A DNA stretch of 42,059 bases from Bacillota bacterium (GTDB lineage Bacteria; Bacillota; TC1), in contig JAGXHX010000045.1 of the NCBI GenBank assembly GCA_024635955.1, positions 1 through 42,059 of the forward strand, given 5' to 3'. The notes beneath the pieces were generated by a model. It searched no databases. It worked only from the letters and a program-made list of their open reading frames with translations, and was not told the DNA's origin. Positions 4,221 through 25,582 of the stretch are shown here, piece after piece. Within the stretch, counting starts at the first letter, position 1; every line of letters begins with the position of its first letter. The translations under genes were made by a program, and so were the position numbers.

Positions 4221-4643
4221 CTACTTTTTTTCTTGGCATTTAGGACAATAACCATATATATCAAGATTATGTCCAACTAAATTATAGTTTGTTTTTTTGG
4301 CAAGATTTTTTTGATAATCCTTTAAAGGGCATGAATCTATCATAACTAGCGCCTTACATTTAAGACAATGAAGATAATGATGATGAACATTTTTATCAAG
4401 CTCAAAAAATATTCTTGCATCATCAGAAAAATTTACCTTTTTCACTATGCCAACTTCGGACATATTCTCTAAAGCTCTATATATAGTGGATAAATTTATT
4501 TCAATATCATTTTCATTAAGCTTGTCTTTTATTTCCAAAACATCAACAGGATGTTCAACTTTTTCTAAAACTTTGAGTATACCAGTTCTCTTTTTAGTTA
4601 TTTTCAAACCTTTGTCCTTTAATATATTCTTAATTTCCATCAC
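4221..4643 (-). CDS. Fur-family regulator (Zur/PerR-type, last gene of metal ABC operon)
   Basis: KGLKITKKRTGILKVLE, NLSTIYRALENM, HHHYLHCLKC, C-terminal YCPKC. Confidence 0.92.
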   Translation of the reverse strand: MMEIKNILKDKGLKITKKRTGILKVLEKVEHPVDVLEIKDKLNENDIEINLSTIYRALENMSEVGIVKKVNFSDDARIFFELDKNVHHHYLHCLKCKALVMIDSCPLKDYQKNLAKKTNYNLVGHNLDIYGYCPKCQEKK

Positions 4644-5459
4644 CTTATTTTTTTCCTTAATTTAATACTTGTTGCTATATATGTAGCTACATAAAATATT
4701 ACTGCAACTAGAACTATCATCGCTCCAGCAGCTGTATTTAAGGTATACGCTAGCCAGATACCCAAAAATATGAATAATACCCCAAATATTACTGACATAA
4801 TAACTCTAGTTCCCATTTTTTTAAACAGGAGTTTAGCATTAGCAGCTGGAGCTATTAAAATTGCCAGAGCCAATATTATTCCAACTATTCTAATTAAAAC
4901 TACTAGTCAATGCTATCATGATAAGTAATAAATACTCTAGAAGTACTACTCCAGTCCCTCTAATCCCTGAAAATTCTTCATCAAATAAATATGCTTTCCA
5001 GTTATTAAATAATGAAATAAATATTATGGATACAACTACAGCTACAACAAACATCATCATCAAATCCGCTTTTGTTACAGCAAGTATATTACCAAATAGA
5101 TAGGATGTTAGATTCGGAGGATATCCTGGCATAAGAGAAATAAAAATTACTCCCAAGGCCATTCCCAAAGACCAAAAAAGACCAATTACAATATCTGAAT
5201 CTGTACCACCTTTTCTTTTAATAAGACCTACAGAAACTGCAGATAATAAGGAAAAGCCCAAGGCTCCATATAAAGGTTCAATTCCGATTAGGTACCCAAG
5301 ACCAACTCCACCATAGGAAGCATGTGCAATTCCACCACTCATCATAATCATCTTTTTTTCCACTATAATAAACCCTATAACACCAGCAAGTACACTGGCT
5401 AATATACCTGCAATAAAAGCATTCTGTAAAAATTGATATTTAAATAAATCAGCTAACAT
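4640..5459 (-). pseudogene. Metal (Zn/Mn) ABC transporter permease, ZnuB/MntB-like, frameshifted
   Basis: Two ORFs (4890..5459 and 4640..4873) together make one ZnuB-like permease; frame switch within 4892-4907. Confidence 0.9.
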
Positions 5460-6219
5460 TATTATCCTCCTGATGTTCTTTTAAAACTCTATGTGGAACT
5501 CCATGAGCAACTAGTTCAACTTGACATCCATATAAACTATTAACTACTTCCTCACTCAATTCTGGATCCCCATGATAAACTAATCTAACATTTAGACAGG
5601 CTAATTCTTTAACGTTTGAAGATATGGCCACCACGTTATGAGTGACCATCATTATTGTTATTTCCTTATTCAAATCACCTAGTAGATTATAAATATCCTG
5701 ACTTGACTTAACATCAACACTAGCAGTTGGTTCGTCTAGAATTAATAGTTTAGGCTCAGTCATCAAGGCTCTGGCTATAAGCATTTTCTGAAATTCTCCA
5801 CCAGATAATTGAGATATATTTCTGTCTGCAAGCTTTTCTAAGCCAACTTTCTTCAGTAATTGTTCAGCTTTTATCCTTTGGTCTTCAGAAAACTTATGAA
5901 AAAAGCTCAGACCTTTATTTAATGCTCCTAAAAGAACTACTTCAATTACAGTTATAGGAAAGTTCTTATCAACAGTGGAAAATTGCGGTACATATCCAAT
6001 TAAATGTCGATTTTTCTTGTTACTTCCACCGAGTATGCTGATTTTGCCACTTTCAATAGGTACTAAACCTAAAACAGCTTTTAACAAGGTAGATTTACCT
6101 CCACCATTAGGTCCCATAATTGCTAAAAAGTCTTTTTCTCTAACTATAAGATTGATTTTTTCTAAAGCTTGTAATTGTCCATAATATACATTTAGATCTT
6201 TTATTTCCACTATATTCAT
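5449..6219 (-). CDS. Metal (Zn/Mn) ABC transporter ATP-binding protein
   Basis: GPNGGGKSTLLKAVLGL Walker A, LSGGEFQKMLIARAL signature, LLILDEPTASVD. Confidence 0.95.
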   Translation of the reverse strand: MNIVEIKDLNVYYGQLQALEKINLIVREKDFLAIMGPNGGGKSTLLKAVLGLVPIESGKISILGGSNKKNRHLIGYVPQFSTVDKNFPITVIEVVLLGALNKGLSFFHKFSEDQRIKAEQLLKKVGLEKLADRNISQLSGGEFQKMLIARALMTEPKLLILDEPTASVDVKSSQDIYNLLGDLNKEITIMMVTHNVVAISSNVKELACLNVRLVYHGDPELSEEVVNSLYGCQVELVAHGVPHRVLKEHQEDNNVS

Positions 6220-7106
6220 TGGAGCAACCCTTCTATTTGTTTGGCAATATTTTCCATTGAACCAATATAATCTTTTGATAGCACTTCAACAACAATAACC
6301 TTACCGCCAATTTCTTCTGCAAATGCCTCTACTTGTTTCGCAGATATTTCTTCGGTTGTAATTATACCCTTAATATTTTTAATTTTCGCCAGGTCTATTA
6401 ATTCTCCTATGTGTCTTGGGTCAGCTTCTTTTCCTTCTTCTTCAAAGGCCAGCATGTCCAATCCATAATCATCTGCAAAATAACCAAGTGCAGGATGATA
6501 AATCAGGAAGGTTTTTTGTTTTTTATCTTTTAATATATTTTGTATCTCCATATCCATATTCTCTATTTTTTTTATGTACTCTTCTTTATTTTTTAAATAT
6601 ACCTCTTTATTAGCTGGATCCTCGTTAATCAAAGTTTCAGCTATTTTTTCTACCATGAGGATAACACGTTTAGGAGATAGCCAGATATGGTGATCTCTGC
6701 TACCAGGTGCAAAATATCTATCTTCATATTTTAATCTTACAGCTGCAGCAAGGTCTATTGTTTTAAAATTGCCGTCAGTTGGTATATTTTTACCATTTTC
6801 AACTGGTAGTTCCATAGCAAAAAATATCTCTGAATCTTTGAATTTTTCAATTTCTAAGGGACTTGCTTCAAAAGTTTCAGGACTTCCACCTTTTGGGACA
6901 AGTGTTGTAATATCAACTAAATCACCCGCCACACCTTCTACAAAAGCTTTTTCCACCTCTATGGTCACAGCAACTTTCAACTTATTATCATCAACAATAG
7001 TTTGATTGCTACATGATGTTAATACCACTATAAATGATACTAACATCATGATTATCATTATTATCATTATTACATTGATTTTACTCGTCTTCTTACTCAT
7101 CTTCAT
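6216..7106 (-). CDS. Metal ABC transporter substrate-binding lipoprotein (ZnuA/TroA cluster A-I)
   Basis: Lipobox VLTSCSN; TTLVPKGGSPETFEASP; DHHIWLSPK; YHPALGYFADDYGL; TTEEISAKQ. Confidence 0.93.
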   Translation of the reverse strand: MKMSKKTSKINVIMIIMIIMMLVSFIVVLTSCSNQTIVDDNKLKVAVTIEVEKAFVEGVAGDLVDITTLVPKGGSPETFEASPLEIEKFKDSEIFFAMELPVENGKNIPTDGNFKTIDLAAAVRLKYEDRYFAPGSRDHHIWLSPKRVILMVEKIAETLINEDPANKEVYLKNKEEYIKKIENMDMEIQNILKDKKQKTFLIYHPALGYFADDYGLDMLAFEEEGKEADPRHIGELIDLAKIKNIKGIITTEEISAKQVEAFAEEIGGKVIVVEVLSKDYIGSMENIAKQIEGLLQ

Positions 7107-23049: not shown

Positions 23050-24894
23050 TTATAGCCCCTTTCTTCTTAATAGCCTTAATGAGTTTAATACAGCAATAAT
23101 AGTTACACCTACATCTGCAAAAACAGCCATCCATAAGCTAGCAAGCCCCACTGCACTAAAAATTAAGACAATAACCTTAATACTAATCGCAAATATAATA
23201 TTAGCTGTAGCTACAAGAACAGTTCTTTTTGCTAATTTTATTGCAACTCCTACCTTTATAGGTTCATCTTCCATTATTACAATATCTGCTGCCTCTATGG
23301 CCGCATCTCTACCAAGACCTCCCATAGCTATCCCAATATCTGCTCTTGCTAAAACTGGAGCATCGTTTATTCCATCACCTACAAATACAGTTTTGCCTTT
23401 TTTATTCCGATGTACCATAATATGTTCTAATTGATTCAGTTTATCAATTGGCATTAAATCAGCTTTATAATTTAGAATTCCTAATTCATCAGCAGTTTTT
23501 TTAGCAGATGTATTTGAATCACCAGTTAGCATGATAATTTTAGAAACACCAATTTCTCTTAAATTTTCAATTGCTTTTTTAGAATCTGCTTTTAATTCAT
23601 CTGCTATTGTTATGTATCCTGCATATTTTCCATCTATACCAATATGTACTATAGTTCTTTCTTCATCTGTTTCATCTGCCTCAATTTGTTCCTGATTCAT
23701 AAGTTTCATATTGCCTATAGTAACAATTTTATCATCAACTTTGGCAATCACTCCAAGACCTGCTAACTCATTTACTTCTGTAATTCTAGTTTCAATAATC
23801 TCGGCACCATAAGCTCTTTTTAGTGATTGGGATATTGGATGACTAGAATGAACCTCTCCATAAGCAGCTAATTCCAGCATCTCACTTTTATTAAAATTAT
23901 TAAAAGTTACAATCTTTTGAACCTCAAAAACCCCTTTAGTAAGAGTGCCAGTTTTATCAAAAACTACATTTTCAACTTTAGCCAATGCTTCTAAATAGTT
24001 ACTACCTTTTATTAGAATACCCTCTTTTGAAGCAGTTCCTATTCCAGCAAAAAAACTAAGTGGTATTGATACAACAAGTGCACATGGGCAAGAAACTACT
24101 AAAAATGCCAGGGCTCTGTAAAGCCAAGTGTTTAAAGTTGACAACCCTAGAATAGCTGTAGGTATAACAACTATTGCCAGACCTATGCCAACTACTATCG
24201 GAGTATAGTATCTAGCAAATTTTGTTATAAATTTTTCCTGAGTTGATTTTTTATTACTGGCATTTTCAACCAATTCTAGGATTCTACTAACTGCAGATTG
24301 TCCAAAAGTATTTGTTGTTTTAACTACTAGTACTCCACTTAAATTTATACAACCACTTAGTAATTCTGAACCAGGTGAAACTTCTTTTGGCAGTGTTTCT
24401 CCTGTAAGAGCTGATGTATCAATATAGGATAAACCTTCAGTAATTATTCCATCAAGTGGTATTCTTTCTCCAGGTTTTATTAAAATGAAACTTCCAATTT
24501 CAATATCTTGGGGGTCTGTAATTTTGATTCCATTTTCAGTTTTAAGGTTGGCATGATCTGCTTTTAATTCCATTAAACTTGTTATTGATCTTTTTGATTT
24601 ATCAACAGCATAATCTTGGAAGTACTCCCCTATTTGATAAAATAGCATAATCGCAATTGCTTCTGGATATGCTTTTATATAAAAGGCACCTAATGTTGCA
24701 ATTGACATTAAGAAATTTTCGTCCAGGAAGTTTCCAGGTCTAATATTCCTTATTGCTTTTAAAAGAATTGTGCCACCAACTACTAGATAACTTATTATAA
24801 ATAGTATAATTTGTAATGGTGTTTCAGGTTTCAGAAAAAATGTAGGAATATAAAGTAATGTTGCTAAGATTATTTGTATAAGTTTTCTATTCAT
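23050..24894 (-). CDS. Heavy-metal (Cd/Zn/Pb-type) P1B ATPase without its own HMA domain
   Basis: SCPCALVVSIPLSFFAGIG, DKTGTLTKG, HSSHPISQSL, GDGINDAPVLARADIGIAMG; C-terminal FADVGVTIIAVLNSLRLL. Confidence 0.95.
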   Translation of the reverse strand: MNRKLIQIILATLLYIPTFFLKPETPLQIILFIISYLVVGGTILLKAIRNIRPGNFLDENFLMSIATLGAFYIKAYPEAIAIMLFYQIGEYFQDYAVDKSKRSITSLMELKADHANLKTENGIKITDPQDIEIGSFILIKPGERIPLDGIITEGLSYIDTSALTGETLPKEVSPGSELLSGCINLSGVLVVKTTNTFGQSAVSRILELVENASNKKSTQEKFITKFARYYTPIVVGIGLAIVVIPTAILGLSTLNTWLYRALAFLVVSCPCALVVSIPLSFFAGIGTASKEGILIKGSNYLEALAKVENVVFDKTGTLTKGVFEVQKIVTFNNFNKSEMLELAAYGEVHSSHPISQSLKRAYGAEIIETRITEVNELAGLGVIAKVDDKIVTIGNMKLMNQEQIEADETDEERTIVHIGIDGKYAGYITIADELKADSKKAIENLREIGVSKIIMLTGDSNTSAKKTADELGILNYKADLMPIDKLNQLEHIMVHRNKKGKTVFVGDGINDAPVLARADIGIAMGGLGRDAAIEAADIVIMEDEPIKVGVAIKLAKRTVLVATANIIFAISIKVIVLIFSAVGLASLWMAVFADVGVTIIAVLNSLRLLRRKGL

Positions 24895-24899
24895 TCTGC

Positions 24900-25130
24900 T
24901 TATACCTTGGTTATATTTACTTGTGGTTCAATTTTTTTGATTATTTTTTCTGCTTCTTTTTCAATTTCTAAACTGGTTTCTTCTAAATCATCTATTGTTT
25001 CTATTATAAGTTTTCCAGCAAAGAAGTTTACTGTTGCTTCTGTAACTCCTTTTAGGCCTGATATTTTTCTTTCTATTTTAGCTGAACAGTTAGCACAGCC
25101 TAAATTTTCTAATCTATATATTTTAGTCAT
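24900..25130 (-). CDS. Stand-alone heavy-metal-associated (HMA) protein
   Basis: MTKIYRLENLGCANCSAKIERKISGLKGVTEATVNFFAGKLIIE; GxxCxxC; start after AGAGG. Confidence 0.9.
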   Translation of the reverse strand: MTKIYRLENLGCANCSAKIERKISGLKGVTEATVNFFAGKLIIETIDDLEETSLEIEKEAEKIIKKIEPQVNITKV

Positions 25131-25134
25131 GGTT

Positions 25135-25506
25135 CTAGCCTCTTCTTTCTTTAATATGTTCATAGCCTTTTTCAAATATTTGTTTTACATGATCGTCTGC
25201 TAGGGAATAGTAGACTACCTTACCTTCTTTTCTGAATTTAACTAGTCTGGCTTCTCTTAGTGCTCTAAGTTGATGTGATATTGCTGATTTTGTCATGTTT
25301 AAAAGTACTGCAAGGTCACATACGCATAGTTCTTGTTCGTCAAGGGCTCACATTAGTTTTACTCTAGTGCTGTCTCCTAGTACCTTGAAGAAATCTGCTA
25401 GCTCATAAAGTTGTTCTTCTAAGGGCATTTTTAGTCTGGCTTCTTCTACTACTTCTGCATGTATAACTTCACAATCGCAGATAATATCTTTTTTCTTATT
25501 TATCAA
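25135..25506 (-). pseudogene. ArsR/CadC/SmtB-family metalloregulator interrupted by in-frame TGA
   Basis: Manual minus-strand translation (from ATG 25521): [130 protein letters not shown] at 25348-25350. GGAGG favours the TTG start at 25506. Confidence 0.92.
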
Positions 25507-25524
25507 TTTTAAATCCTCCATTAG

Positions 25525-25582
25525 TTGAATAGGTATTCAATCATCTTACTTTATTATAGTTGAGCAGTCATTCAATTGTCAA
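25525..25582 (-). promoter_or_regulatory. Consensus promoter with two ArsR-like dyads
   Basis: Minus strand TTGACA (25577-25582)-N18-TATAAT (25553-25558); TTGAATG-AC-TGCTCAA in the spacer (25560-25575); TTGAATA-CC-TATTCAA 25525-25540. Confidence 0.75.

Follow-up and report, generated by a model that had tools for sequence, protein, structure and literature searches.

A repressor gene of the ArsR/SmtB family, hereafter cadC, carries a single TGA in the middle of its reading frame. Is this codon a nonsense mutation, a sequencing error, a stop that is read through, or a selenocysteine (Sec) codon? The original prediction listed these four alternatives, and the list proved right. The gene lies in the window, that is, the whole stretch of 42,059 nucleotides that was analysed, which belongs to a draft MAG of 1.44 Mb in 97 contigs with a completeness of 77%.

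The minus-strand frame 25521-25135 has one internal stop upon translation, the TGA at codon 58 (25350-25348), which comes directly after TRVKLM; the rest of the frame is intact. When read through, cadC scores 62.3 bits against Pfam HTH_5 (PF01022; cut-off 22), showing that the ArsR HTH domain is present, and 100.8 bits against NF033788 (cut-off 55). Because of the HTH_5 score and the 90% identity of the read-through product to a stop-free same-genus homolog, the frame is not a product of chance. It encodes the alpha3N ligands, namely CDC near the N-terminus and ELCVCD, as aligned with PDB entry 1u2w, and both the CVC motif and the HTH helix are 3' of the TGA. Thus, the claim of a full-length ArsR frame with one TGA was confirmed, as was the position of the CVC motif and the DNA-recognition helix after the stop. 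Judged from its sequence, the frame is that of an ordinary CadC/SmtB-type repressor, predicted to sense cadmium/zinc, and under the genome's own code the TGA at codon 58 keeps it from being completely translatable. Two starts had been proposed, ATG at 25521 and TTG at 25506. The latter is likelier, since a GGAGG (25519-25515) is well spaced from it and is overlapped by the ATG, and the closest relative has GTG there.

cadC is the first gene of an operon, followed by the genes for a heavy-metal-domain protein and a P-type ATPase (Table 1). In the relatives the centre bases of the second operator vary and the symmetry of its arms is retained. The heavy-metal-domain protein scores 22.8 bits against NF041115 (UxxU metal-binding (seleno)proteins; cut-off 95), which is a weak match, and carries Cys rather than Sec in its GCANC motif.

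Table 1. Features of the cadC locus, with coordinates in the window.
Feature	Position	Strand	Remarks
cadC-like ArsR/SmtB repressor gene	25135..25506	-	TTG start, one TGA inside; predicted product ~52 residues
In-frame TGA of cadC	25348..25350	-	TGG (Trp) in three closest same-genus relatives and 68/79 homologs
Heavy-metal-associated domain protein, 76 residues, CxxC = GCANC	24900..25130	-	Starts 4 nt past cadC stop codon
Cd/Zn-type heavy-metal P1B ATPase, intact	23050..24894	-	TIGR01512, 488 bits, above cut-off
Promoter: TTGACA 25582-25577, 18-bp spacer, TATAAT 25558-25553	25553..25582	-	Sequence; also in G001, G002, G004
Putative operator 1, TGAATGACTGCTCA, imperfect inverted repeat within promoter spacer	25561..25574	-	Kept in relatives; predicted function
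Putative operator 2, TGAATACCTATTCA, inverted repeat, 2-bp centre	25526..25539	-	Sequence; predicted function

To trace the ancestry of the codon, homologs were aligned from two sources, 60 relative genomes and named public genomes. Codon 58 is TGG in the three closest same-genus relatives (G001, G002 and G004) and TTG in the more distant G003. Among 79 further readable homologs, a set that partly overlaps with the relative genomes, it is TGG in 68 and encodes Cys in 6, Ser in 4 and Met in 1; the Cys cases belong to more distant homologs. In a survey of 398 genomes from the phylum, 176 had a match, and among the roughly 150 matches listed an internal stop occurs only in this window. Since TGG prevails in the closest relatives and in most homologs, and no other match listed has an internal stop, the ancestral residue is Trp. 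The expectation of an aromatic residue, Leu or Cys at this site needs correction: Trp is found in nearly all close homologs, and Cys is rare. At codon 58 the gene differs from that of the closest relative by one base, and a single G-to-A transition from TGG would explain the stop. The codon aligns with Tyr in Staphylococcus aureus CadC and with Ser in SmtB, so it does not encode a metal ligand. A TGA in the homolog of one relative (G023) was considered as a same-site stop and rejected, as it is the normal end of that gene. The viral contigs searched held no TGA or TGG copy in the same context, and the plasmid records searched for a cadC copy gave distant partial matches only.

Codons 59-128 of cadC differ from those of G004 by 17 synonymous and 2 nonsynonymous codon differences (dN/dS ~0.035), which points to strong purifying selection on the post-stop codons in the past. 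Most of this conservation predates the TGA, because all the relatives lack the stop, and it does not demonstrate readthrough. From the low dN/dS after the stop and the intact operators, it follows that the TGA is either young or not present in the organism. The reading we prefer, with a probability of about 0.5, is a recent nonsense mutation that turned TGG into TGA in an ordinary CadC/SmtB-type repressor, at a Trp codon that is conserved and does not encode a metal ligand. If the TGA is present in the living organism, translation would stop after about 52 residues. The resulting fragment would have neither the CVC ligands nor the DNA-recognition helix, the wing and the C-terminal dimer helix, and thus would be unable to bind the two predicted operators. 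Barring a polar effect, the operon would then be constitutively on, and with it the genes for the heavy-metal-domain protein and the Cd/Zn ATPase. The codon, its ancestry, the lack of a global UGA=Trp code and the intactness of the operators and downstream genes are established directly; the loss of repression and the reality of the allele are inferred.

Two ways of rescuing the repressor were considered. The first in-frame start after the TGA is the ATG in LLNMTKS; internal restart was rejected, since this ATG has no Shine-Dalgarno sequence and a product starting there would lack the greater part of the DNA-binding domain. A second copy was rejected as well, because the other ArsR genes match the query in the HTH only, with 31-38% identity where listed. 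An intact second repressor had been named as a finding that would overturn the prediction, and no second CVC-type repressor was found in the assembly, from which about one quarter of the genome is missing. A real allele would add to the loss-of-function alleles of metal-efflux repressors and would leave the Cd/Zn exporter permanently on.

A consensus error is nearly as likely as a real nonsense mutation. In that case the repressor of the organism would be intact, with TGG at codon 58, and the TGA would be confined to the draft MAG, as a miscalled base or a minority-strain variant. The rest of the gene looks functional, with purifying selection after the stop, conserved operators and an intact operon. 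Apart from the TGA, the whole frame, the promoter and the operators are perfect and free of lesions, which counts against a real mutation. Other lesions in the same MAG point in this direction. The normally essential murE has a 1-nt deletion about 400 bp from a contig end, a lesion that a living cell would hardly be expected to carry and that therefore suggests consensus errors in this MAG. An indel also interrupts a zinc-permease gene on the same contig as cadC. However, cadC is located mid-contig, and its lesion is a substitution, one belonging to the commonest type of mutation, whereas both other lesions are indels. An apparent enrichment of lesions in this contig gave a Fisher p of 0.06 with murE counted; this test was picked post hoc and the result is not firm.

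As for the two other damaged genes themselves, murE is split across two contig ends, L254 (G000 C90) at ~7000-7045 and L150 (C6) at 3-707. The zinc-permease gene encodes a znuB-like zinc ABC transporter permease (4649-5474, minus strand), lies between an ATPase gene (5449-6219) and a Fur-family gene (4221-4643), and is split near 4905 in comparison with two same-genus genomes. It is a second broken metal-homeostasis gene on the contig and perhaps a sequence error as well.

If the nonsense mutation is real, the allele might be leaky, that is, tRNA-Trp(CCA) might misread UGA at a low level and insert Trp to yield some wild-type repressor and partial function. Near-cognate reading would insert the ancestral residue, the region after the stop is conserved, and in-frame stops under purifying selection have been reported to be common in bacteria (PMC7918605). 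Nevertheless, we regard such leakiness as improbable. The conservation is older than the stop, given that the relatives all lack the TGA, and the stop was found in no second species. UGA reading has been linked with a 4-bp anticodon stem, A9C and G24A in tRNA-Trp (PMC13092985). The tRNA-Trp of this genome shows none of these features: its anticodon is CCA, the anticodon stem has 5 bp with G-U as the top pair, and both base changes are absent. The RF2 gene is intact and uninterrupted. It is likewise improbable that a real TGA is usefully read through by tRNA-Trp to give a low-dose, possibly stress-tuned metal repressor.

Sec insertion would make cadC a Sec-containing metal sensor. The original prediction called for a check of selA, selB and selC, and all three were found in this genome: selA and selB on contig C86 (G000 C86:13958-17211) and the tRNA-Sec gene, selC, on contig C34 (C34:22703-22795). 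selD was not found in this 77%-complete MAG; the selD of same-genus relatives contains an in-frame TGA of its own as a Sec codon. Because selA, selB and tRNA-Sec are in the genome and the selD of relatives has a Sec codon, Sec was worth real testing, and Cys does occur at codon 58 in the distant homologs mentioned above. The bSECIS model requires an MFE of at most -7.5 kcal/mol and a loop 16-37 nt away (PMC13188914). For cadC, the 60 nt that follow the UGA have an MFE of -4.0 kcal/mol, and most shuffled versions fold more stably (z = +1.29); among single hairpins at a suitable distance, the best has -2.2 kcal/mol. As a positive control, the 60 nt after the selD UGA in three relatives gave -9.9, -11.5 and -11.6 kcal/mol; these stretches satisfy the energy limit, and some of them fail some loop rules. 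By the published criteria, then, there is no bSECIS just 3' of the cadC UGA, in line with the original prediction, which had seen no convincing hairpin there. The close homologs have TGG at this position rather than Cys or UGA, so that the residue of the genus is Trp, and no homolog among the roughly 150 matches listed has TGA at codon 58. The literature search turned up no ArsR selenoproteins, and the main text of the review PMC13188914 mentions no ArsR or transcriptional-regulator selenoprotein. Since the ancestral residue is Trp and a bSECIS is missing, with selD as the positive control, we reject Sec reading of cadC as very unlikely. An unusual route to Sec insertion that bypasses the SECIS is even less probable than readthrough by tRNA-Trp. 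Sec had been rated the least supported option, and this rating stands. A nonsense mutation or a sequence error explains everything seen. The case serves mainly as a warning: where homologs have TGG at the aligned codon and no bSECIS follows, a TGA within the frame does not speak for a selenoprotein, even if the genus is capable of making Sec.

The last alternative is reassignment of UGA to Trp in this organism, with which the TGA at a Trp codon of cadC would agree. About 1.3 Mb of the 1.44-Mb assembly was surveyed, in stretches, against the genes in 400 kb of sequence from two same-genus genomes. The aligned Trp codons comprised 393 TGG, and TGA was found in one gene only, cadC, which was tallied twice because it is present in both reference genomes. 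With 234 reference genes aligned, cadC had the sole mid-gene stop, and the remaining stops were at gene ends. Among ORFs of at least 100 aa, 135 of 1179 end in TGA, and the genome has no tRNA with the anticodon UCA other than selC. The intact RF2 and the normal-looking tRNA-Trp(CCA) also mean that UGA is not generally read as Trp, so together with the codon counts they rule out a global UGA=Trp code. UGA is thus a stop in this organism, and the earlier proposal that TGA works as a normal stop elsewhere, made from the ATGA overlap at 714-717, holds. The overlap is genuine, with the end of one ORF at 714 and the start of the following one at 717.

On present evidence, the cadC TGA is an ordinary nonsense allele or an assembly error and no recoding event. 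The read-through product aligns over its full length with CadC of S. aureus pI258 (PDB 1u2w; E 1e-18) and with SmtB of Synechococcus (PDB 1r1t; E 3e-24). Like the CadC/SmtB systems, this locus combines N-terminal CDC cysteines with an ELCVCD motif in the repressor, has an inverted-repeat operator at its promoter and includes a P1B ATPase in the operon. It differs from them in having a separate heavy-metal-domain gene between the repressor and the ATPase, and in having TGA at the non-ligand site where CadC has Tyr and SmtB has Ser. The cadC TGA resembles the bacterial in-frame stops described by Belinky et al. in 2021 (PMC7918605) in being a single stop with low dN/dS downstream. In that study artefacts were excluded by requiring stops common to at least two species, whereas the cadC TGA is found in one draft genome only. 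Like the genes of prokaryotic selenoproteins (PMC13188914), cadC contains a TGA within its frame and belongs to an organism that possesses selA, selB and selC; unlike them, it has no bSECIS, a Trp ancestry and no Cys/Sec pattern in its close homologs.
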